From Methylobacterium platani (GTDB taxonomy: Bacteria; Pseudomonadota; Alphaproteobacteria; Rhizobiales; Beijerinckiaceae): DNA of 64,000 nt. Numbering within the stretch: the first letter of the stretch is position 1; each line of letters opens with the position of its first letter. Below the pieces are notes generated by a model. The model saw only the letters and a list, made by a program, of their open reading frames with translations, was not told where the DNA came from and did not search any database. Below are positions 25,300 to 46,346 of the stretch, piece by piece. The position numbers and the translations under genes are program-made. The stretch covers positions 1 to 64,000 of the forward strand of contig NZ_LWHQ01000022.1 of assembly GCF_001653715.1 (NCBI RefSeq), in the 5' to 3' direction.

Positions 25300-27084
25300 T
25301 CAGGAGACCGTCCGCCCGCCGAGCCGGGCGATCTCCCAGGGCGGCGCGATCTCCTCGCGGGTCGCGCAGAGCCCGGACCGGACCATCGCCCGCCCCGCCG
25401 CGGGCGACGCCGTGACGACGCAGAACGGCACGGCGAGGAGGCTGCCGAGGGTGAGCGGCAGGCTCCAGACGAGCAGCGCCGGCGAGACGACGGCCAGCGC
25501 CCCGCAGACGGCGAGCCCGAACAGCGTGACGCCGCGCAGGGCCGCCAGCGCCTCGCCCCAGCCGAGCGTCCGGGCGTCCCGGTCCTGCGCCGTCCACAGC
25601 CCGGCGCGCCCGAGACCGAGCCCGATCAGTACCGCGGTAAGCCGCACCGACGACGCAGCCAGCAGCAGGAACGAGGCCGCGACCTCGGCCAGCATCCCGG
25701 CAAGGAAGCGGGCGCCGCCGCCATGGGCCGCCCGCACCTCGCGGTCGGAGAGCGCCGCGGCGTAGCCGGCGAGCTTCGGGGCGAGGGAGAGCAGGAGCCA
25801 GGCGAGGTAGAGCGCGGCGGCGCCCGCGGCCGGGCCGCCTTGCGTCGCGGCCCGCCAGGGCAGCAGCAGCAGGGCCAGCGTCAGGGCCGGCGGGTTGAGG
25901 AACATCATCACCGCCCAGGCGAGTTGGAAGCGGCTCATCGGCAGGAGCCCGGGCATCGCCGGCAGGCGCAGGTACTGCATGTTGCCCCGGCACCAGCGGG
26001 CGTCGCGGACGAGGTGGTCGAGGAGGGTCGGCGGGTTGTCCTCGAAGCTGCCCTCCTCGAGCGGCAGCACCCGGACCTCGTAGCCGGCCCGGCGCATCAG
26101 CACCGCCTCGACCTGGTCGTGCGAGAGCACCGACCCGCCGCCGCGCAACCGCGGCAGCCGGCAATGGGCCGCGAAGGGCGCGATGCGCACGACCGCGTTG
26201 TGGCCCCAGAACGGGCCGCATTCCGCCCCCCACCAGGCCGCACCCAGCGTGTAGGGCAGCATGCCGTGGCGCATGCCGAACTGGAACAGCCGCGAAAAGG
26301 CGCTGCCCGCCGGCGCGCCCACCGCCAGGCTCTGCAGGATGCCGAGGCGGGGATGCGCCTGCATGATCCGCACGAGGCGCAGGATCGCCGGGCCGGTCAT
26401 CAGGCTGTCGGCGTCGAGGGGCAGCATCAGGTCGGCGTCGCTGCCGGCGCAGAAATCCTGCAGGTTGCCGGCCTTGTAGCCGGTATTCTCGCTCCGGCGC
26501 CGGTAGCGGATCCGGGCGGCCGCGTCCGGGGCCAGCCCGGCGCGCCAGGCGGCGACCCACGCCTCCTCGGCCCGGATCACGCCCGGATCGTCGCTGTCGC
26601 TCAGGACATGGTAGCCGAAGGCGGACCCGAAGCCGGTGCGCTCCAGGCTCTCGCGCACCAGGGCGAGGCGGGCGAGCGCCCGGGCCGGGTCCTCGTTGCG
26701 CAGCGTCATCACGACGGCGGTCGTCAGGTGGAGGGGAATGTCCCCCTCCCCCGCCGCGGCGTGGGGCGCCGCCGCCATCAGCCCGGCGCGGCCGGCCCGC
26801 AGCAGCACGAAGCCGATCGCGGCGTTCCAGAATCCGAGCACCGTCCAGGGCAGGGTGGCGAGGCCGCAGGCGAGGAGCGCGAGGTCGAGCCCGTCGAACC
26901 CGTCCGCCGCCAGGACGCCCCACAGGCAGGCCGCGAGTCCCGCGATGGTCGCGAGAGTGAGCCCGAGCACCAGGAGACGGCGGCGACGCAGGGTGACCGA
27001 GGCTTGCAGGCCCGTCGGCGTCGTGAGAGGAGCGCGGGCGGGCCCCTCCGCGAGGGTGACCACCGAGGAGTCGGTTTGCGGCAT
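25300..27084 (-). CDS. opgH: Glucans biosynthesis glucosyltransferase H
   Basis: 594-residue inner-membrane GT2 enzyme that polymerises UDP-glucose into osmoregulated periplasmic glucan. Transmembrane segments flank a large cytosolic domain with SDSDDPGV, LPLDADSLMTG (metal-binding DxD), ECGPFWGHNAVVR, SHDQVEA and ARWCRGN (QxxRW-like). It is shorter than gamma-proteobacterial OpgH (~850) because both termini are reduced, as in other alphaproteobacteria. No opgG is adjacent. It is divergent from the MDR dehydrogenase with only 33 bases between the starts. Confidence 0.9.
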   Translation of the reverse strand: MPQTDSSVVTLAEGPARAPLTTPTGLQASVTLRRRRLLVLGLTLATIAGLAACLWGVLAADGFDGLDLALLACGLATLPWTVLGFWNAAIGFVLLRAGRAGLMAAAPHAAAGEGDIPLHLTTAVVMTLRNEDPARALARLALVRESLERTGFGSAFGYHVLSDSDDPGVIRAEEAWVAAWRAGLAPDAAARIRYRRRSENTGYKAGNLQDFCAGSDADLMLPLDADSLMTGPAILRLVRIMQAHPRLGILQSLAVGAPAGSAFSRLFQFGMRHGMLPYTLGAAWWGAECGPFWGHNAVVRIAPFAAHCRLPRLRGGGSVLSHDQVEAVLMRRAGYEVRVLPLEEGSFEDNPPTLLDHLVRDARWCRGNMQYLRLPAMPGLLPMSRFQLAWAVMMFLNPPALTLALLLLPWRAATQGGPAAGAAALYLAWLLLSLAPKLAGYAAALSDREVRAAHGGGARFLAGMLAEVAASFLLLAASSVRLTAVLIGLGLGRAGLWTAQDRDARTLGWGEALAALRGVTLFGLAVCGALAVVSPALLVWSLPLTLGSLLAVPFCVVTASPAAGRAMVRSGLCATREEIAPPWEIARLGGRTVS

Positions 27085-27117: not shown

Positions 27118-28065
27118 GTGCGGGCGCTCTGGTATAGCGCAGCCGGACAAGCGGAGCTGCGGCAAGAGCGCCTGCCCGCGCCCGGCCCGGACGAGGTCCG
27201 GGTACGCACCCTGTGGACGGCCCTGAGCCGCGGCACCGAGCGGCTGGTCTTCGAGGGCCGCGTGCCCGACGCGGTGGCCGACCGGATGCGGGCCCCGGCG
27301 CAAGGCGGCGCCTTCTCGTTTCCGGTCAAGTACGGCTACTGCGCCGTCGGCGAGACGCAGGACGGCACGCCCGTCTTCGCGCTCCGGCCGCACCAGGAGG
27401 CCTTCAACGCCCCCCTGGCGGCGCTCTGTCCGCTGCCGGCCGGCCTGCCGCCGCGTCGCGCGGTGCTCGCCGCCAACATGGAGACGGCGCTGAACGCCCT
27501 GTGGGATTCCGGCGCCGGCCCCGGCGACCGGATCGCCGTGGTCGGCGGCGGCGTGGTCGGGCTCTTCGTCGCCCATCTCTGCGCCGGGCTGCCGGGGGCG
27601 GAGGTTCTCGTCATCGACCGCGATCCGGCCCGGGCCGCGACCGCGCGGGCCCTGGATCTTGCATTCGCGCTGCCGGAGGAGGCGGAGCCGGAGGCCGACA
27701 TCGTGTTCCATGCCAGCGCCAGCGCGGCGGGTCTCGCCCTCGCCCTGTCGCTCGCCGGCGAGGAAGCGGCGATCGTCGAGCTGAGCTGGTACGGCGACGC
27801 GCCGGTCGCGAGCCCCCTCGGCCTCGCCTTCCACGCCCGGCGCCTGCGCCTCGTCGCGAGCCAGGTCGGGGCGGTGGCGGCCTCGCGCCGCCCGCGCTGG
27901 AGCCACCGGCGGCGCCTCCTCAAGGCCCTCGACCTGCTCGCCGATCCCCGCCTCGACGCCCTCCTCACCGAGGAGATCGCCTTCGACGCCCTCCCCGCCG
28001 CCCTCCCGCGCCTGCTCGCGCCCGGCGCGCCGGGCCTGTGCACCGTGATCCGCTACGACGGCTAG
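27118..28065 (+). CDS. MDR-superfamily dehydrogenase (BchC-like)
   Basis: 315 residues, medium-chain dehydrogenase fold. The N-terminal motif LSRGTERLVFEGRVP (about 39-53) and FPVKYGYCAVG are those of the BchC/threonine-dehydrogenase-like subgroup. The NAD(P) Rossmann motif is VVGGGVVGLFVAHL (about 141-154). The usual GHE catalytic-zinc motif is missing, so zinc catalysis is doubtful. The GTG at 27118 fits; the long upstream frame is antisense to opgH. It heads the group containing a QueD-like protein, a glycosyltransferase and a methyltransferase. The substrate is unknown. Confidence 0.8.
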   Translation: MRALWYSAAGQAELRQERLPAPGPDEVRVRTLWTALSRGTERLVFEGRVPDAVADRMRAPAQGGAFSFPVKYGYCAVGETQDGTPVFALRPHQEAFNAPLAALCPLPAGLPPRRAVLAANMETALNALWDSGAGPGDRIAVVGGGVVGLFVAHLCAGLPGAEVLVIDRDPARAATARALDLAFALPEEAEPEADIVFHASASAAGLALALSLAGEEAAIVELSWYGDAPVASPLGLAFHARRLRLVASQVGAVAASRRPRWSHRRRLLKALDLLADPRLDALLTEEIAFDALPAALPRLLAPGAPGLCTVIRYDG

Positions 28066-28101
28066 AGCCGCGCCCGATCGCGGCGCGATCGGGCGCGGCT
28101 C
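28065..28101 (+). terminator. 17-bp perfect hairpin after dehydrogenase gene
   Basis: Two exact 17-base arms with a 3-base loop, beginning at the last base of the dehydrogenase stop codon. There is no T-run, so it may be a Rho-assisted terminator, a processing stem or an attenuator. It separates the dehydrogenase from the tightly packed three-gene unit that follows. Confidence 0.5.
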
Positions 28102-28179
28102 CGGGCCGTTGAAACTGCTGCATCTCCGTCGACGAACCGGTATCCGCCGCGTCGGACAATGCTCTGGAAGGAAGCCGCC

Positions 28180-28581
28180 ATGTACGCCGTCGAGGTCCGC
28201 GAGCACGTGATGATCGCCCACAGCTTCCGCGGGGCGCTGTTCGGGCCGGCGCAGGGCCTGCACGGGGCGACCTTCGTGGTCGACGTGGCGTTCTTCCGCG
28301 AGAGCCTGACCGCCGACGGGGTGGTGGTCGATATCGGCCGGGCGGGCGAGGCGCTCAAGGCCGTGCTGGCGCCGCTCAACTACCGCAACCTCGACGACCT
28401 GCCGGACTTCGCCGGCACGAACACCACCACCGAGTTCCTGTGCGGGCACATCCACGGGGCGATGGCGGCGGCGGCCCGGGCCGGCGCCCTCGGCCCCGGC
28501 GGCGAGGGCGTGAGCCGCATCCGCGTCACCCTGCACGAATCCCACCTCGCCCGCGCCTGGTTCGAGGCGCCGCTCGCCTGA
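28180..28581 (+). CDS. 6-carboxytetrahydropterin synthase-like protein, catalytic residues replaced
   Basis: 133 residues with the QueD/PTPS T-fold (tunnelling fold). Alignment by eye with E. coli QueD pairs its AAH with IAH (His14) and its CGRLHGH with AQGLHGA. The catalytic Cys is therefore Ala24, one zinc His is retained (His28) and the third zinc His is Ala30. The DHH segment is NYR (67-69), while the pterin-anchoring Glu is kept (Glu120). It is unlikely to do classical QueD chemistry but may bind a pterin-like ligand. The ATG at 28180 follows AAGGAAG; a start 21 bases upstream is less likely. Its stop overlaps the glycosyltransferase start. Confidence 0.8.
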   Translation: MYAVEVREHVMIAHSFRGALFGPAQGLHGATFVVDVAFFRESLTADGVVVDIGRAGEALKAVLAPLNYRNLDDLPDFAGTNTTTEFLCGHIHGAMAAAARAGALGPGGEGVSRIRVTLHESHLARAWFEAPLA

Positions 28582-29636
28582 TGCGCCTCGTCCTCGCCGT
28601 CCCGGGCGACCTCGCGGCCCCGACCGGGGGCTACGCCTATGCCCGCGCGCTCCTGGAGCACCTGCCGGCCCAGGGCGTCGAGGCCGTGCACCTCGCCCTG
28701 CCGGCCGGATTTCCGGATCCGGATGCCGACGACGTCGCCCGCACCGCCGCCCTCCTGGCGGCGGTCCCGGCCGAGGCCGCGCTCCTCGTCGACGGCCTCG
28801 CCTACGGGGCGCTGCCGCCCGAGGCGATCCGCGCGACCGGCCGGCCGGTCTGCGCCCTGGTGCACCATCCCCTCGGCCACGAGACCGGGCTGACGCCGGA
28901 GCGCGCGGCGGCCCTCATCGCGGGCGAGCGCGCGGCCTTGGCGCTGGCCGCCCGGGTGATCGCCTCGAGCCGGTTCACCGCCCGGATGCTCGCCGGCGAG
29001 TTCGGCGTGGCCCCGGAGCGGATCGCCGTCGCCGAGCCCGGAACGCCCCCGAGGCCCCGGGTGGCGCCGCGGCCGGGTCCCCACGTGCGCCTCCTCGCCG
29101 TCGGCACGGTGACGCCGCGCAAGGGCTACCCGGTGCTGGTGGACGCGCTCGCGGGGCTCGCCGGCCTCGACTGGTCGCTCACCGTCGCGGGCACCCTCGA
29201 CCGGGCGCCGGATTGCGCGGCGAACCTGCGCGACCGGATCGCCGCCGCGGGTCTGACCGACCGCATCACGCTCGCCGGGGCGGTGACGCAGGCGGAGCTG
29301 GAGCGGCTCGCGGCCGAGGCCGACATCGCGGTCTCGGCCTCGCTGTTCGAGGGCTACGGCATGGCGCTGACGGAGGCCCTGGCCCGGGGCCTGCCGCTCG
29401 TCGCCGCCGCCGGCGGCGCCGCGGCCGAGACGGTGCCGCCGGGCGCCGGCCTCGCGGTGCCGCCCGGCGACGCGGCCGCGCTCGCGGCCGCGCTTGGCGC
29501 CCTGATCGCCGATCCCGCCCGCCGGGCCGAGGCCGCCGCCGCGTCCTTCGCGGCGGGACGCCACCTGCCGGACTGGCCCGACACCGCCGCGGCGGTCGCC
29601 GCTTCCCTGAGGACAGACTGCCCGAGGACAGCATGA
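28581..29636 (+). CDS. GT4-family glycosyltransferase
   Basis: 351 residues, GT-B fold. The N-terminal glycine loop is PTGGYAYARALL (about 14-25). The C-terminal nucleotide-sugar domain has GTVTPRKGYPVLVDAL (about 175-190) and the retaining-enzyme motif SLFEGYGMALTEAL (about 255-268). No transmembrane helix, so it is cytosolic. The start shares one base with the QueD-like gene's stop (TGATG) and its own stop overlaps the methyltransferase start. The acceptor is unknown; its coupling to a pterin-fold protein suggests a small heterocycle rather than a polysaccharide. Confidence 0.87.
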   Translation: MRLVLAVPGDLAAPTGGYAYARALLEHLPAQGVEAVHLALPAGFPDPDADDVARTAALLAAVPAEAALLVDGLAYGALPPEAIRATGRPVCALVHHPLGHETGLTPERAAALIAGERAALALAARVIASSRFTARMLAGEFGVAPERIAVAEPGTPPRPRVAPRPGPHVRLLAVGTVTPRKGYPVLVDALAGLAGLDWSLTVAGTLDRAPDCAANLRDRIAAAGLTDRITLAGAVTQAELERLAAEADIAVSASLFEGYGMALTEALARGLPLVAAAGGAAAETVPPGAGLAVPPGDAAALAAALGALIADPARRAEAAAASFAAGRHLPDWPDTAAAVAASLRTDCPRTA

Positions 29637-30469
29637 CCGGCTTCAGCCCCGACTGGCTCGCCCTGCGCGAGCCCGCCGACCGCGCGGCGCGCGACCCCGG
29701 CCTCGTCGCCGCCCTGGCCCGGGCGCTGCCGCGCCCGGTGCGGGCGGTCGATCTCGGCTGCGGCACCGGCTCGAACCTGCGGGCGCTGGCGCCGCGTCTC
29801 GGGCCGGCGCAGGACTGGCTCCTCGTCGACCACGATCCCGCCCTGCTCGCCGCGGCGCGGGACCGCCTCGCGGCCTGGGCCGAGGATGCGGAGGCGGACG
29901 GGGACGGGCTGGTCCTGCGCAGCGGCAAGGCCCGGATCGCGGTGCGGTTTCGCGCCCTCGACCTCGCCGCCGATCCGGGCGCGGCCCTGACCGAAGCGCC
30001 CGACCTCGTCACCGCGGCGGCGCTGTTCGACCTGACCTCGGAGGCCTGGATCGCCGCCCTGGCGCGCGCGGTCGCCGCGGCCGGCGCCGCCTTCTACACC
30101 GCGCTGACCTATGACGGGCACGAGGCCTGGACGCCGCCGCATCCGGCCGACGCCGCGATCCACGCCGCGTTCCTCGCCCATCAGGCCGGCGACAAGGGCT
30201 TCGGGCCCGCCGCCGGCCCGGGGGCGACGGCGGCGCTGGCAAGGGCCTTCGGCAGCCGCGGCTACCGGGTCGAGACCGCGGAGAGCCCCTGGCGCCTCGG
30301 CCCGGACGACGCCGCGCTGCTGCACCCGCTCGCCGAGGGCACGGCGCGGGCGGCGCGGGAGACCGGGCGGGTCGCGGCGGACGCGGCCGCGTCCTGGGCG
30401 GCCTTGCGGCGCGCGCCCGGCACGGGGGCGGTGATCGGGCACCGGGACCTGCTGGCGCTGCCGGGCTGA
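29633..30469 (+). CDS. Class I SAM-dependent methyltransferase
   Basis: 278 residues. The SAM-binding motif I AVDLGCGTGSNLRAL lies at about 36-50 and the acidic end of strand 2 (LLVDHDPALL) at about 63-72. The rest is Ala-rich and less conserved. It overlaps the glycosyltransferase stop by four bases (ATGA). Likely the last step of the three-gene unit, methylating oxygen or nitrogen on the glycosylated product. The target is unknown. Confidence 0.82.
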   Translation: MTGFSPDWLALREPADRAARDPGLVAALARALPRPVRAVDLGCGTGSNLRALAPRLGPAQDWLLVDHDPALLAAARDRLAAWAEDAEADGDGLVLRSGKARIAVRFRALDLAADPGAALTEAPDLVTAAALFDLTSEAWIAALARAVAAAGAAFYTALTYDGHEAWTPPHPADAAIHAAFLAHQAGDKGFGPAAGPGATAALARAFGSRGYRVETAESPWRLGPDDAALLHPLAEGTARAARETGRVAADAAASWAALRRAPGTGAVIGHRDLLALPG

Positions 30470-30548
30470 GCCGCGCCGGCCAAGGGAAAGGGAACCTTGC
30501 AGGCCTGCCCGTCGCCTTCGACCGGGGCCGTTCGACGGCGCTGCGGCG

Positions 30549-32000
30549 TCAGGCGCTGTCGCGCCCGTAGACGTCCTCGATGCGGATGATGTCGTCCTCG
30601 CCGGTATAGCTGCCGACCTGGACCTCGATCAGCTCGAGCGGGATCTTGCCCGGATTGGCCAGCCGGTGGACGCACCCGATCGGCAGATAGGCCGCCTCGT
30701 TCTCGTGGACGAGGCGCACCACCCCGTCCACCGTCACCTCGGCGGTGCCGCGCACCACCACCCAGTGCTCGGCCCGGTGGTAGTGCTTCTGCAGCGACAG
30801 CCGGCCGCCCGGCTTCACGGTGATCCGCTTCACCTGGAAGCGCCCGCCGATGTCGATGCGCTGGTAGGAGCCCCACGGGCGGTACATCAGCCGGTGGGCG
30901 TCCGCCTCCGGCTCGGCCCGCCGCCGCAGGGCCTCGACCAGGCCCTTCACCTCCGCCCCGGCGGTGCGGCTCGTCACCAGCACCGCGTCGTCCGTCGTCA
31001 CCACCACCACGTCGTCGAGGCCGACCACCGTGGTCAGGATCTCGCCGGAGGAATGGACCAGGCTGTTGCGGGTGCCCTGCACCGCCACGCGGCCGCGCAG
31101 GGCGTTGCCGTCGCCGTCCCGGGGCGAGACCTCCCACAGCGCCCCCCAGGTGCCGATATCCGACCACGGGAAGCTCACCGGCAGCACGCCGGCCCGCTCG
31201 GTCCGCTCCATCACGGCGTAGTCGATCGAGATCTGCGGCGCCTGCGCGAAGGCCGCCTCGCCGAGGCGCACGAAATCGAGGTCGCGGGCGGCGGTCGCGA
31301 CGGCGGCGCGGGCGGCCGCCAGCACCGCCGGGGCGTAGGCCTCGAGCTCGTCCAGCATCACGTCGGCGCGGAACAGGAAGTAGCCGCCGTTCCACAGCGC
31401 GCCCTCGGCGATCAGGCCGGCGGCGCGGGCGGCGTCGGGCTTCTCGAGGAAGCGGGCGACCGCGCGGGCGCCGGCCTCGCCCGCCGCGCCCGGCAGGGCG
31501 GCGCCGGGCTGGATGTAGCCGTAGGCGGTGGAGGGCTGCGTCGGCGCGAGGCCGAGCGTCATGATGCGCCCGGCCCGCGCCCCGGCGCGGGCGGCACGCG
31601 CCGCCGCCACGAAGGCCGCGTCGTCGCCGACGGCGTGGTCGGCCGGCAGGATCAGCACCAGGGCCTGGGGGTCGCGGGCGGCGGCGGTGAGCGTCGCGAC
31701 GGCGACGGCCGGGGCGGAATCGCGCCGGCACGGTTCGAGCAGGATGTCGGCGGCGACCCCGCCCTGGGCGAGTTGCTCGGCGACGAGGAAGCGGGCGTCG
31801 TTGGCGGTGACGACCGCCGGGCGCGCGAACACGGCAGGGTCGGCGAGGCGCGCGGCGGTGGCCTGGAACGACGAGCGGCCGGGCTCGGCGAGGGGGATGA
31901 ACTGCTTGGGAAAGCTCTCGCGGGAGGCCGGCCACAGCCGCGTCCCGGACCCGCCGCACAGGATCACCGGGTGGATCAGACCATCCTGCTCGGAATGCAT
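30549..32000 (-). CDS. manC: Mannose-1-phosphate guanylyltransferase / mannose-6-phosphate isomerase
   Basis: 483-residue bifunctional enzyme. The N-terminal nucleotidyltransferase has ILCGGSGTRLWPASRE and FPKQF (about 13-35); the C-terminal type II isomerase is a cupin (LSLQKHYHRAEHWVVVRG, about 408-425). It makes GDP-mannose for exopolysaccharide or lipopolysaccharide. The phosphomannomutase at 44.4-45.9 kb could supply mannose-1-phosphate. The ATG at 32000 follows GAGAGGGG. It converges on the methyltransferase gene. Confidence 0.93.
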   Translation of the reverse strand: MHSEQDGLIHPVILCGGSGTRLWPASRESFPKQFIPLAEPGRSSFQATAARLADPAVFARPAVVTANDARFLVAEQLAQGGVAADILLEPCRRDSAPAVAVATLTAAARDPQALVLILPADHAVGDDAAFVAAARAARAGARAGRIMTLGLAPTQPSTAYGYIQPGAALPGAAGEAGARAVARFLEKPDAARAAGLIAEGALWNGGYFLFRADVMLDELEAYAPAVLAAARAAVATAARDLDFVRLGEAAFAQAPQISIDYAVMERTERAGVLPVSFPWSDIGTWGALWEVSPRDGDGNALRGRVAVQGTRNSLVHSSGEILTTVVGLDDVVVVTTDDAVLVTSRTAGAEVKGLVEALRRRAEPEADAHRLMYRPWGSYQRIDIGGRFQVKRITVKPGGRLSLQKHYHRAEHWVVVRGTAEVTVDGVVRLVHENEAAYLPIGCVHRLANPGKIPLELIEVQVGSYTGEDDIIRIEDVYGRDSA

Positions 32001-32321
32001 CTCGGCCCCTCTCGAAGGATGCGGGCGAAACCGCCGCGTCGACCGTCGCTCCCGCCGGCGCATGGTCGGGGTTCCATGTTCTGGATTCCCGGGGGATCGC
32101 CAACACCCGATCTCGTCGGACCGGACCCGGCCGAAGGGAGGGGTCTACCGCCAAAGCATGTACACCGGCCGCGATCCCGAGGCCAGGATCGGAGCCTCCC
32201 GCGCCCGCACGGGCTCGGCGCGTCGTTAATCGAAACCGCGGGCGCCCGCCGGGAGCGGAGGTCTCACTTGTCCCTCCACCCCGTCACCCCTCCCCCACCC
32301 CATCACCCCGTCCCCACCCCG
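32001..32321. other. Spacer upstream of manC with C-rich repeats
   Basis: 321 bases between two minus-strand genes. No gene is seen. Near the cytochrome end (32279-32347, partly inside that gene) is a degenerate repeat of CACCCCGTCACCCCTCCCC-like units, a simple-sequence tract. The manC promoter probably lies within 32010-32250. Confidence 0.4.
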
Positions 32322-32867
32322 TCACCCCTCCCCCTGCCCCCGCCCCGGCAGCATCCGCCGCAGGGTCCCGTCGCGGCGCACCCAATGGTGGTGCAGGGCG
32401 GCGCCCGCGTGCAGGGCCACGAGGGCGACGAGCGTGAAGGCCGCGACCTGGTGTACCCGGAGGATCGCCTCGCCCACCGGCATGCCGCCGGAGACCGGCA
32501 GGGTGAGGGGGAGCGTGAAGTACAGCATCACCGGCGCACAGCAGGCCGAGGTGCCGGCCCAGCCGAGGAGCGGCACCAGGACGATCAGGGCGTAGAGCGC
32601 GAGGTGCGAGGCCTGCGCCGCCCGGCGCTGCCAGGCCGGCAGGCCCGCCGCCAGCGGCGGGGCGCCGCGAGCGGCCCGCACCAGGAGGCGGGCCAGCGCC
32701 AGCGCCAGCACCGTGAGACCGAACGACTTGTGCCATTCGTAGAGGGCGTTCTTCACCGGCCCGTCCGGCAGGTTGGCCATGGCGAGCGCGATCGGCACCA
32801 GGGCGAAGACCAGGGCGGCGACCGCCCAGTGCAGCGCCTTCTGGGACGGGGCGTAGCGACGCGGCAT
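32322..32867 (-). CDS. Cytochrome b561-type membrane protein
   Basis: 181 residues, four transmembrane helices. Histidines placed as haem ligands occur in KALHWAV (His13), YEWHKSFG (about 45), QASHLALYAL (about 91) and near HAGAALHHHWV (about 153-160). This is the YceJ/CybB quinol oxidase or superoxide-linked di-haem family of the inner membrane. Two Cys in TSACCAPV are unusual. It is divergent from ribA (starts about 210 bases apart). Confidence 0.87.
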   Translation of the reverse strand: MPRRYAPSQKALHWAVAALVFALVPIALAMANLPDGPVKNALYEWHKSFGLTVLALALARLLVRAARGAPPLAAGLPAWQRRAAQASHLALYALIVLVPLLGWAGTSACCAPVMLYFTLPLTLPVSGGMPVGEAILRVHQVAAFTLVALVALHAGAALHHHWVRRDGTLRRMLPGRGQGEG

Positions 32868-33077
32868 GATCTGGCCTCACTCCCGGGGTGTATGGACGGC
32901 CTGGACAATCGCGAAAGGTTGATGAAGGGATCCGCAGCAAAGCGGGGCCGCAGGCCCCACATGGCGGCGGGCGTCCGGGCGTCGATCCTTGGCCGATCCT
33001 CGGCCGATCCCCGCCGGTCCGTCCGCATCCGGTTTCCGGCCCGCCGCGACAGCGCCGGGCCCTCTCTCTCAGGGTCG

Positions 33078-34196
33078 ATGATGTCGGTCACGATGCAGAG
33101 CAGCAGCAGTCTAGACCCGGCCGCGGGCCGGGACCAGATCGACGTCGAGCGGGCGCTGGCGGAGATCCGCGCCGGCCGGCCCGTGAGCCTGCGCGGCGAC
33201 GATCCGGTGCTCGCCCTCTCCGCCGAGGCGCTCGACGAGGGCACCGTCGCGACCCTGACGGCGCTCGCCGGCACCGGCGCCCGCCTCGTCCTGCCGGCGC
33301 CGCGCCTGCGCCGCCTCGGCCTGCCCGAGCGCCGGGAGGCCGGCGCGGTGGCGCTGCCGGCGATCGATCCCGCCCGGATCGAGGCCCTGGCCCTGCGGCT
33401 CGACGGCCGCATCGACGCGCCGGTGGCGCCCGCCTCGCCCGGCGACGAGGCGGCGCTCGCCCTGATGGCGCTCGCCCAGGTGCTGCCGGCGGTCGTCGTC
33501 GTGCCCGGCGAGGCGGCGCCGCCCGGGACCCTCTGCGTCGCCGCCGGGGCCGTCGCGCGCTATCCGGGCCGGCAGGCCGCCGCCTTACGTCCGGTGAGCC
33601 GGGCGCCGGTGCCGCTCGCGGGCGCGCCGGACAGCGAGTTCGTGGTCTTCCGCGGCGGCGAGGGCCTGCGCGACCAGGTGGCGGTGGTGATCGGCAAGCC
33701 GGACCTCTCCGGGCCGGTGGCGGTGCGGCTGCACTCGGCCTGCCTGACCGGCGACCTGTTCGACTCGCTCAAATGCGATTGCGGCGACCAGTTGCGCGGC
33801 ACCGCCGGCTGGATGGCCCAGCACGGCGGCGGCATCGTGCTCTACCTCGACCAGGAGGGCCGCGGGAACGGGCTGGCCAACAAGATCCGCGCCTACGACC
33901 TCCAGGCCCGCGGGCTCGACACCTACGAGGCCGACGAGGCCCTCGGCTTCGGCCTCGACCAGCGCCGGTTCGACTTCGCGGCGGCGATGCTGAAGGCGCT
34001 CGGCGTCACCGCGGTCCGCCTCGTCAGCAACAACCCCGAGAAGGCCGCGAGCCTGGAAGCCGCCGGCCTGACCGTGGCCGAGACCCAGCGGGCGCTCGGC
34101 CGGGTGACGCCGGAGAACATCCGCTACCTCACCGCCAAGCGCGACCGGGCCGGGCACGCCCTCGACCTCGACGCCTTCGCCTGCATCGACGTGTAA
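33078..34196 (+). CDS. ribA: GTP cyclohydrolase II with degenerate RibB-like N-terminus
   Basis: 372 residues. The C-terminal ~190 residues are a full GTP cyclohydrolase II opening GTP to 2,5-diamino-6-ribosylamino-pyrimidinone phosphate. The zinc Cys222, Cys233 and Cys235 lie in HSACLTGDLFDSLKCDCG, and YLDQEGRGNGL holds the catalytic region. The first ~170 residues align weakly with 3,4-dihydroxybutanone-phosphate synthase (VERALAEIRAGRPV) but lack its acidic DDEDRENEGD motif, so that half is probably inactive. Role: riboflavin, or the pterin-like gene group 3-5 kb upstream. Two adjacent ATGs start it, at 33078 and 33081. Confidence 0.88.
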   Translation: MMSVTMQSSSSLDPAAGRDQIDVERALAEIRAGRPVSLRGDDPVLALSAEALDEGTVATLTALAGTGARLVLPAPRLRRLGLPERREAGAVALPAIDPARIEALALRLDGRIDAPVAPASPGDEAALALMALAQVLPAVVVVPGEAAPPGTLCVAAGAVARYPGRQAAALRPVSRAPVPLAGAPDSEFVVFRGGEGLRDQVAVVIGKPDLSGPVAVRLHSACLTGDLFDSLKCDCGDQLRGTAGWMAQHGGGIVLYLDQEGRGNGLANKIRAYDLQARGLDTYEADEALGFGLDQRRFDFAAAMLKALGVTAVRLVSNNPEKAASLEAAGLTVAETQRALGRVTPENIRYLTAKRDRAGHALDLDAFACIDV

Positions 34197-46111: not shown

Positions 46112-46186
46112 TGGTGCCGCTGGGGAGGATTGAACTCCCGACCTCGTCATTACCAATGACGCGCTCTACCACTGAGCTACAACGGC
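46112..46186 (-). tRNA. tRNA-Thr(GGT), copy 1
   Basis: Cloverleaf on the minus strand with 7-bp acceptor stem GCCGTTG/CAGCGGC (one G-T pair), anticodon stem CGTCA/TGACG and loop TTGGTAA giving anticodon GGT, and T-loop TTCAATC. The 3' CCA is encoded (TGG at 46112-46114 on the plus strand). Reads ACC/ACU threonine codons. Confidence 0.96.
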
Positions 46187-46271
46187 GCGCCGGCTCGTGC
46201 TGCGGCCGCCCCTTCGGGCAGACCTGCGATCACACGCGCCGAGCGAAATCTCCGACTCTCACGCTTGAGGA

Positions 46272-46346
46272 TGGTGCCGCTGGGGAGGATTGAACTCCCG
46301 ACCTCGTCATTACCAATGACGCGCTCTACCACTGAGCTACAACGGC
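46272..46346 (-). tRNA. tRNA-Thr(GGT), copy 2
   Basis: Identical in sequence to the tRNA at 46112-46186, including the encoded CCA and anticodon GGT, 85 bases away on the same strand. The two were probably produced by tandem duplication and are likely cotranscribed, this copy first. Confidence 0.96.

Follow-up and report, generated by a model that had tools for sequence, protein, structure and literature searches.

The window analysed here, that is, the first 64,000 nucleotides of contig NZ_LWHQ01000022.1 from Methylobacterium platani (GCF_001653715.1), contains a compact group of plus-strand genes that encode, in order, a medium-chain dehydrogenase (27118–28065, GTG start; annotated in relatives as 'zinc-binding alcohol dehydrogenase'), a QueD-like T-fold protein of the SCO6650 (3d7j) type (28180–28581), a GT4 glycosyltransferase (28581–29636), and a class I S-adenosylmethionine (SAM) methyltransferase (29633–30469). 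The last three genes overlap: the glycosyltransferase gene has one base in common with the stop codon of the QueD-like gene (TGATG), and the methyltransferase gene has four in common with the stop of the glycosyltransferase gene (ATGA); the sequence thus bears out the three-gene coupling described in a first-pass annotation that was made from the DNA alone. That annotation also placed a GTP cyclohydrolase II (GCH II) 2.6 kb past the methyltransferase, and the gene found there (33078–34196, plus strand, start codon approximate) encodes a canonical RibA of the long PRK08815 type (NF006456, 486.6 bits, above the 464 cut-off). The arrangement is more than chance, because it recurs at other loci, and the cluster appears to be a real, conserved and uncharacterised pathway.

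Most of the family assignments made in the first pass stand: the glycosyltransferase matches PF00534 (1e-24), the methyltransferase matches PF13649 (9e-8), and the QueD-like protein matches the PTPS family PF01242 (3e-19). The 'BchC-like dehydrogenase' is indeed a dehydrogenase and lies upstream, but its likeness to BchC is distant (36.7 bits with TIGR01202, for which the cut-off is 291; the best stretch spans 88 residues). No Cys column is kept in at least 70% of 19 dehydrogenase sequences, so the enzyme apparently lacks zinc ligands. The structure model of the dehydrogenase (predicted local distance difference test, pLDDT, 90.6) has the fold of medium-chain dehydrogenases/reductases (MDR) and matches MDR enzymes generally, and that of the methyltransferase (pLDDT 96.1) matches class I methyltransferases generally; neither model gave a substrate hint, and sequence searches of the PDB with the methyltransferase, GT4 and dehydrogenase profiles returned no informative relative.

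The 'QueD-fold protein' of the first pass does belong to PF01242, but QueD catalytic residues are missing and the QueD model TIGR03367 is missed by a wide margin (31.8 bits; cut-off 89.25). Its match to PDB entry 3d7j, Streptomyces coelicolor SCO6650, covers the whole domain (5.3e-44, residues 1–130 of 133). In place of the QueD motif CxxxHGH, 140 of 142 loci have FGPAQxxHGA (one further locus has an FGPAR variant, and one could not be read). Relative to the canonical QueD encoded elsewhere in the same genome (C20, 8e-37), the Cys and second His of the motif are replaced by Ala and an Asp-His pair by Asn-Tyr; two His and the Glu of QueD are retained. According to the review PMC5041015, CxxxHGH comprises the catalytic Cys and zinc-binding His of QueD; section 7 leaves a 'PTPS-V' group without a clear function. 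Judged by these residues the protein is not QueD, and the strict conservation of the altered site points to a new function, in binding or catalysis, and away from decay. All six plasmid records that we read annotate the gene as 6-carboxytetrahydropterin synthase, as would suit a second QueD that works with its own glycosyltransferase in a queuosine-related tRNA modification; the canonical QueD elsewhere in the genome speaks against this, no further queuosine gene is listed in the six plasmid regions, and the motif and score tests largely refute an explanation that we consider barely credible.

The cluster is widely distributed. Among 199 sampled genomes of the order, 55 gave a QueD-like match and 54 were counted as QueD-like genomes, leaving 145 others (G112, with an E-value of 8e-4 and 32% identity, was left out; G083, in which 55 residues matched, was retained); three sampled relatives in the same genus lack the gene. 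A pattern scan across 84,980 species, with one genome per species, found at least 585 relatives of the QueD-like protein. The best 80 of these, referred to as the named loci, come from alpha-, beta- and gammaproteobacteria and from one actinobacterial metagenome-assembled genome (MAG); they include Methylobacterium, Microvirga, Xanthobacter, Roseibium, Azospirillum, Rhodobacter, Polynucleobacter, Xanthomonas and a Thauera MAG. In a sample of 296 Actinomycetota genomes the QueD-like profile matched 64, exceeding 100 bits at only ten places in nine genomes; the remaining matches (at most 78 bits) may be ordinary PTPS-family proteins. Candidates were scored up to a maximum per genome of 9 for RibA, 12 for the RibD-type reductase discussed below, and 14 for the actinobacterial QueD-like proteins. 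One genome (G167) has two QueD-like copies (L084 and L090), one of which is without any of the usual neighbours that were searched for.

The neighbourhood of the QueD-like gene is likewise conserved in other species, a check that the first-pass annotation had itself put forward. Within 9 kb at the 80 named loci, we find the glycosyltransferase at 75, the dehydrogenase at 71, the methyltransferase at 65, an MdoH (OpgH)-type glucosyltransferase at 61, a RibD-type reductase at 47, and RibA and cytochrome b561 at 33 each; the corresponding numbers for 53 loci from the order sample are 52, 52, 43, 42, 27, 21 (RibA) and 24 (cytochrome b561). The two sets share genomes, the order loci supplied the sequences for the search models, and several contigs end early. 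Two architectures can be distinguished. In type B, the type found in the window, a divergent mdoH gene precedes the dehydrogenase, QueD-like, glycosyltransferase and methyltransferase genes, the RibD-type and cytochrome b561 genes lie on the opposite strand, and the RibA gene comes last; in the window, mdoH (25300–27084, minus strand) is separated from the dehydrogenase gene by 33 bases between start codons. In type A, the divergent place of mdoH is taken by a gene for a CDP-alcohol phosphatidyltransferase (usually divergent), and the same core is accompanied by genes for a flippase-like protein, the RibD-type reductase, RibA and sometimes a creatininase-family protein. Nine of the ten actinobacterial loci were analysed (short L208 was left out); they contain the CDP-alcohol transferase (7), the flippase-like protein (8), RibA (6), the creatininase-family protein (5) and the RibD-type reductase (2, with a third seen separately). 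Type A also occurs in Thauera (L142), Alkalisalibacterium (L159) and two genomes of the order (L062 and L067).

Twenty plasmid records match the QueD-like protein, and the six regions that we read (L285–L290) are from Methylosinus, Streptomyces, Thiodictyon, Agrobacterium, a Rhodobacteraceae bacterium and Microbacterium; plasmid carriage suggests that the cluster is transferred. The region on pOB3b1 of Methylosinus trichosporium OB3b is of type B and, over the stretch read, has neither RibA nor cytochrome b561; those of Streptomyces fungicidicus (RibD and flippase not listed) and Microbacterium (CDP-alcohol transferase on the plus strand, RibA missing from the stretch) come close to type A; those on Agrobacterium pAt and the Thiodictyon plasmid are mixed; and the Rhodobacteraceae plasmid has no glycosyltransferase gene directly 3' of the QueD-like gene.

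Taken by themselves, the GT4, methyltransferase, MdoH, FkbM and CDP-alcohol transferase proteins could belong to an envelope glycan or glycolipid cluster, in which the QueD-like, RibA and RibD proteins would be present by chance or to supply a cofactor. The MdoH count at the named loci and the CDP-alcohol transferase and flippase-like genes of the second architecture fit this explanation; MdoH, however, is missing from type A, and the QueD-like, RibD-type and RibA genes co-occur across phyla and also when they are not adjacent, so we hold an envelope cluster to be very unlikely. MdoH is a conserved neighbour of the dehydrogenase gene.

A stand-alone RibD-type reductase gene, which is not in the window, tracks the cluster in other genomes. 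Its profile splits the order sample, with 41 genomes scoring at least 200 bits and the next genome 109.5; 40 of these are among the 54 QueD-like genomes and one is among the 145 others, the latter being 56% complete. The gene counts as not adjacent when it lies on a different contig from the QueD-like gene or over 15 kb from it, which applies to 12 of the 40; with the adjacent cases removed the comparison is 12/26 vs 1/145. Five of the 12 share a contig with the QueD-like gene, at distances from 57 kb up to 4.4 Mb, and two of these five belong to one genus; the other seven are on other contigs, some of them short, so that their true distance to the QueD-like gene is undefined. Long RibA follows the same trend: it is found in 30 of the 54 QueD-like genomes and in six of the 145 others (four of the six from one genus), and in 13 of the 30 it is not adjacent (five on the same contig, eight on other contigs). 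The thresholds (200 and 240 bits) were chosen after the lists had been seen, and RibA has no clean gap (next genome 209.5). The p-values (3e-15 and 7e-29) overstate independence because the genomes are related; counts by genus are fairer, and for the RibD-type gene these are 24/30 vs 0/69.

The window RibA has an intact zinc motif (CLTGDLFDSLKCDC) and an intact Tyr in KIRAYDLQ, which we take to be the zinc-binding cysteines and the active-site Tyr. By pattern, RibA of the proteobacterial clusters is mostly of this Tyr type (27 of 33 named loci; two further types were read separately); the Alkalisalibacterium RibA has Trp at this site. Of the six RibAs at actinobacterial loci, five have Met for Tyr and an adjoining creatininase-family gene, as does the named S. 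fungicidicus locus, and the sixth has Tyr and no creatininase-family gene; among the 80 named loci, a creatininase-family gene is near a Tyr-type RibA in four (L127, L142, L145 and L161). A bacterial creatininase-family enzyme is a proven formamidase that deformylates the formyl intermediate, according to PMC9478397. The actinobacterial creatininase-family protein could be the deformylase partner of RibA, in which case clusters with Met-type RibA plus creatininase and clusters with Tyr-type RibA would arrive at one intermediate by different routes. A tree was built from GCH II domains (approximately 180 residues, local support values; nine RibBA sequences dropped out for lack of a match); in it, 49 proteobacterial RibAs, two of them not cluster-adjacent, form one group (0.977). 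The Met-type copies fall with RibBA of actinobacteria, in a group that also takes in four Hyphomicrobium-type copies (0.81), and a further actinobacterial copy falls with a stand-alone actinobacterial RibA (0.90). Because the tree places cluster RibAs in separate groups, different GCH II lineages seem to have joined the cluster independently, more than once. Conserved gene order, co-occurrence without adjacency and this repeated recruitment together give good support to the first-pass view that the genes form a single conserved pathway linked to GTP.

The ribA gene might simply be the riboflavin housekeeping gene. RibBA of the window genome (C13, G000:C13:163526-163975) lacks the zinc cysteines, and its third GCH II homolog (C34) has diverged and carries a changed Cys motif. 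Three relatives in the genus that lack the cluster (L220, L222 and L223) have only RibBA, again without the GCH II zinc motif, so window ribA is not simply a housekeeping gene of the genus; to judge from these zinc-less RibBA sequences, the genus as a whole does not depend on long RibA for riboflavin. These relatives carry one or two creatininase-family (PF02633) genes, and such a gene, which might serve riboflavin synthesis, was present in 8 of 8 genomes tested; we therefore regard the housekeeping explanation as weakened, and the test named in the first pass, whether ribA is the sole riboflavin gene, did not refute the pathway. The zinc-less RibBA may be the missing enzyme that opens GTP in BrbF-type riboflavin synthesis, and the only creatininase-family gene found in the window genome (58376–59104, minus strand) could encode the riboflavin formamidase BrbF; window RibA may also serve riboflavin.

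A pterin route that starts from GTP cyclohydrolase I is a further possibility: a biopterin- or monapterin-type glycoside could be made from dihydroneopterin products by the QueD-like T-fold protein, GT4 and methyltransferase, with RibA as a bystander. Pterin glycosides are known from cyanobacteria (PMC13259868). Against this route, GTP cyclohydrolase I is not listed in the six plasmid regions, nor was it recognised by eye among the recurrent neighbours; QueD residues are replaced; and both the RibD-type paralog and long RibA track the cluster even when not adjacent. We judge this route unlikely.

The RibD-type reductase provides a clue to the point at which the pathway would leave riboflavin synthesis. 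In the one RibD-type protein scanned, Pfam finds only RibD_C and no deaminase domain. In bacterial RibD reductases a Lys (Lys151 in Bacillus subtilis) promotes use of the deaminated substrate; the fungal residue at this site is Thr and the archaeal one Asn, and in yeast RIB7 the T35K substitution moves the preference to the deaminated substrate (PMC3631187). Among the cluster copies, the pattern read Gln here at 44 of the 47 named loci and at 27 of the 28 order loci and could not read the others; four of five named plasmid copies also have Gln. Four non-cluster copies read as Lys (G405, G200, G201 and G082), and non-cluster actinobacterial paralogs have Thr, Asn and Asp in one each, the pattern having failed on others. 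The best PDB relatives of the profile, 6p8c and 2azn (116.9 and 113.4 bits, vs at most 97 for RibD-like chains), are reductases of the non-deaminated substrate. Because Gln replaces the selectivity Lys, the RibD-type reductase probably acts before deamination, thereby keeping the 2-amino group of the pterin type; the branch would then part from riboflavin synthesis ahead of deamination, with the 2-amino-4-oxo head of pterins retained.

The presence of RibA and RibD family proteins would also be explained if the extra copies boosted riboflavin and the GT4 and methyltransferase decorated a secreted flavin; in Sinorhizobium meliloti, RibBA reportedly supplies flavin for secretion and not the internal pool (PMC9478397). 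Such a flavin branch is at odds with Gln in place of the Lys that selects the deaminated substrate, and RibB, RibE and RibH are not listed in the six annotated plasmid regions, nor did inspection by eye reveal any of them in the neighbour groups that recur most. A QueD-like protein is not known to have any role in flavin synthesis, which also counts against a decorated flavin, and we think this explanation quite unlikely.

We favor, with moderate confidence, a branch off early riboflavin synthesis that leads to a glycosylated, methylated 2-amino-pyrimidine or pterin. To judge from its family and intact residues, RibA would open GTP to 2,5-diamino-6-ribosylamino-4(3H)-pyrimidinone 5'-phosphate; in most cluster genomes the dedicated RibD-type reductase, which lacks the deaminase domain and has Gln at the Lys151 site, would then convert the ribose to a ribityl chain before deamination, so that the 2-amino-4-oxo head typical of pterins would be kept. 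The QueD-like protein would bind this intermediate, its retained Glu perhaps anchoring the head, and perform a ring or side-chain step. As their families suggest, the MDR dehydrogenase would adjust a side-chain alcohol or carbonyl, GT4 would add a sugar, and the methyltransferase would add a methyl group. Of the first-pass proposal of a glycosylated, methylated pterin- or pyrimidine-like product, the GTP link is upheld and the product is not supported as it was stated; ours is a structure predicted from enzyme families. Where the CDP-alcohol phosphatidyltransferase and flippase-like protein occur, the product is probably lipid-attached or membrane-translocated, a suggestion that we make with reserve. 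In an extended version of the scheme the cluster would make a membrane-anchored redox or signalling lipid: a ribityl 2-amino-pyrimidine or pterin bearing a sugar and a methyl group would be attached to lipid by the CDP-alcohol transferase and flipped to the outer side, and in many lineages cytochrome b561 would serve it. This version is drawn from the CDP-alcohol transferase, flippase-like and cytochrome b561 neighbours, and we regard it as speculative and rather improbable.

Several observations weigh against a riboflavin-derived branch of this kind. The RibD-type paralog is absent from 14 of the 54 cluster genomes, and long RibA from 24. In the window genome (G000, completeness given as 100%), the cluster profile found no RibD-type paralog among the 12 of 59 candidates that were scored, and there is no PF01872 match and no recognisable full RibD, only short deaminase-like matches; the reductase step therefore cannot be placed in this genome, and either the assembly lacks RibD genes, possibly through an assembly gap, or the pathway borrows or has lost a step. 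The Lys151 site is not uniform: it is His in the Thiodictyon plasmid copy and Ser in one actinobacterial cluster copy (G405), and Ser also occurs in three non-cluster actinobacterial copies. The RibD-type representative scores 99.7 bits with TIGR01508, the archaeal reductase (cut-off 186), and 129.5 with the generic RibD_C model TIGR00227, again below cut-off. Three loci (L045, L047 and L150) have, near the cluster, RibA-like genes with Leu at the Tyr site; these make up a separate branch of the GCH II tree and may differ in activity. The actinomycete creatininase-family protein is nearer MftE (131.9 bits) than ArfB (37.1), and a distant creatininase homolog from M. extorquens failed to complement an S. 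meliloti formamidase mutant (PMC9478397). G111, a genome that lacks the QueD-like gene, encodes a long RibA along with a protein that matches the RibD-type profile only in part (98 positions, 92 bits); this may be the remnant of a decayed set.

Among the closest known systems is that of S. coelicolor. The window QueD-like protein resembles SCO6650 over the whole domain; SCO6650 is reportedly without zinc, catalytic triad and PTPS activity. SCO6655, the Met-type GCH II homolog of this organism, is reported to stop at, or release, the formylated intermediate, and the Met-for-Tyr change reported for it is the one seen in RibA at actinobacterial loci of the same arrangement. The proteobacterial clusters, by contrast, have mostly Tyr-type RibA and no creatininase-family gene nearby. 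Work on the S. coelicolor GCH II enzymes is cited in PMC3509567. The early riboflavin steps of archaea and fungi (GCH III/ArfA, ArfB and Rib7/ArfC) would share reduction before deamination with the branch proposed here, consistent with the best PDB matches of the RibD-type profile; they differ in having Asn or Thr rather than Gln, the cluster adds the QueD-like protein, MDR dehydrogenase, GT4 and methyltransferase, and later riboflavin enzymes are not listed nearby in the six plasmid regions. QueD and PTPS (COG0720) share PF01242, the Glu and two His with the QueD-like protein, which differs by FGPAQxxHGA. Cyanobacteria have a GT4-type biopterin glucosyltransferase, and by analogy the cluster enzyme would act on a pterin-like aglycone; cyanobacterial pterin glycosides start from GTP cyclohydrolase I, whereas the entry enzyme linked to the cluster is GCH II.

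No paper that unites the components of the cluster was found among the openly licensed literature, which does not show that the cluster is undescribed, and none was found there for SCO6650 by name; the one paper in which some of the components come together, PMC9478397, is about riboflavin. The 3d7j family, for which a structure was solved and left 'uncharacterized' and which is annotated as a queuosine enzyme without having the key motif of that enzyme, gains a pathway context, namely GCH II, a reductase expected to act before deamination, and tailoring enzymes. If the proposed branch is correct, a common and overlooked GTP-derived metabolite would be made by alpha-, beta- and gammaproteobacteria and Actinomycetota, with its genes also carried on plasmids.

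Between the methyltransferase and RibA genes, the minus strand of the window encodes a ManC-type mannose-1-phosphate guanylyltransferase/isomerase (30549–32063), which occupies the place of the RibD-type reductase in relatives and probably lies outside the pathway, and a cytochrome b561 (32322–32867), which has the same place and strand in many relatives. A defence function was considered and rejected: PADLOC gave only a 35-bit match, of the methyltransferase to the MADS methyltransferase, which looks generic. Two tandem tRNA-Thr(GGT) genes are located at 46112–46346 on the minus strand.

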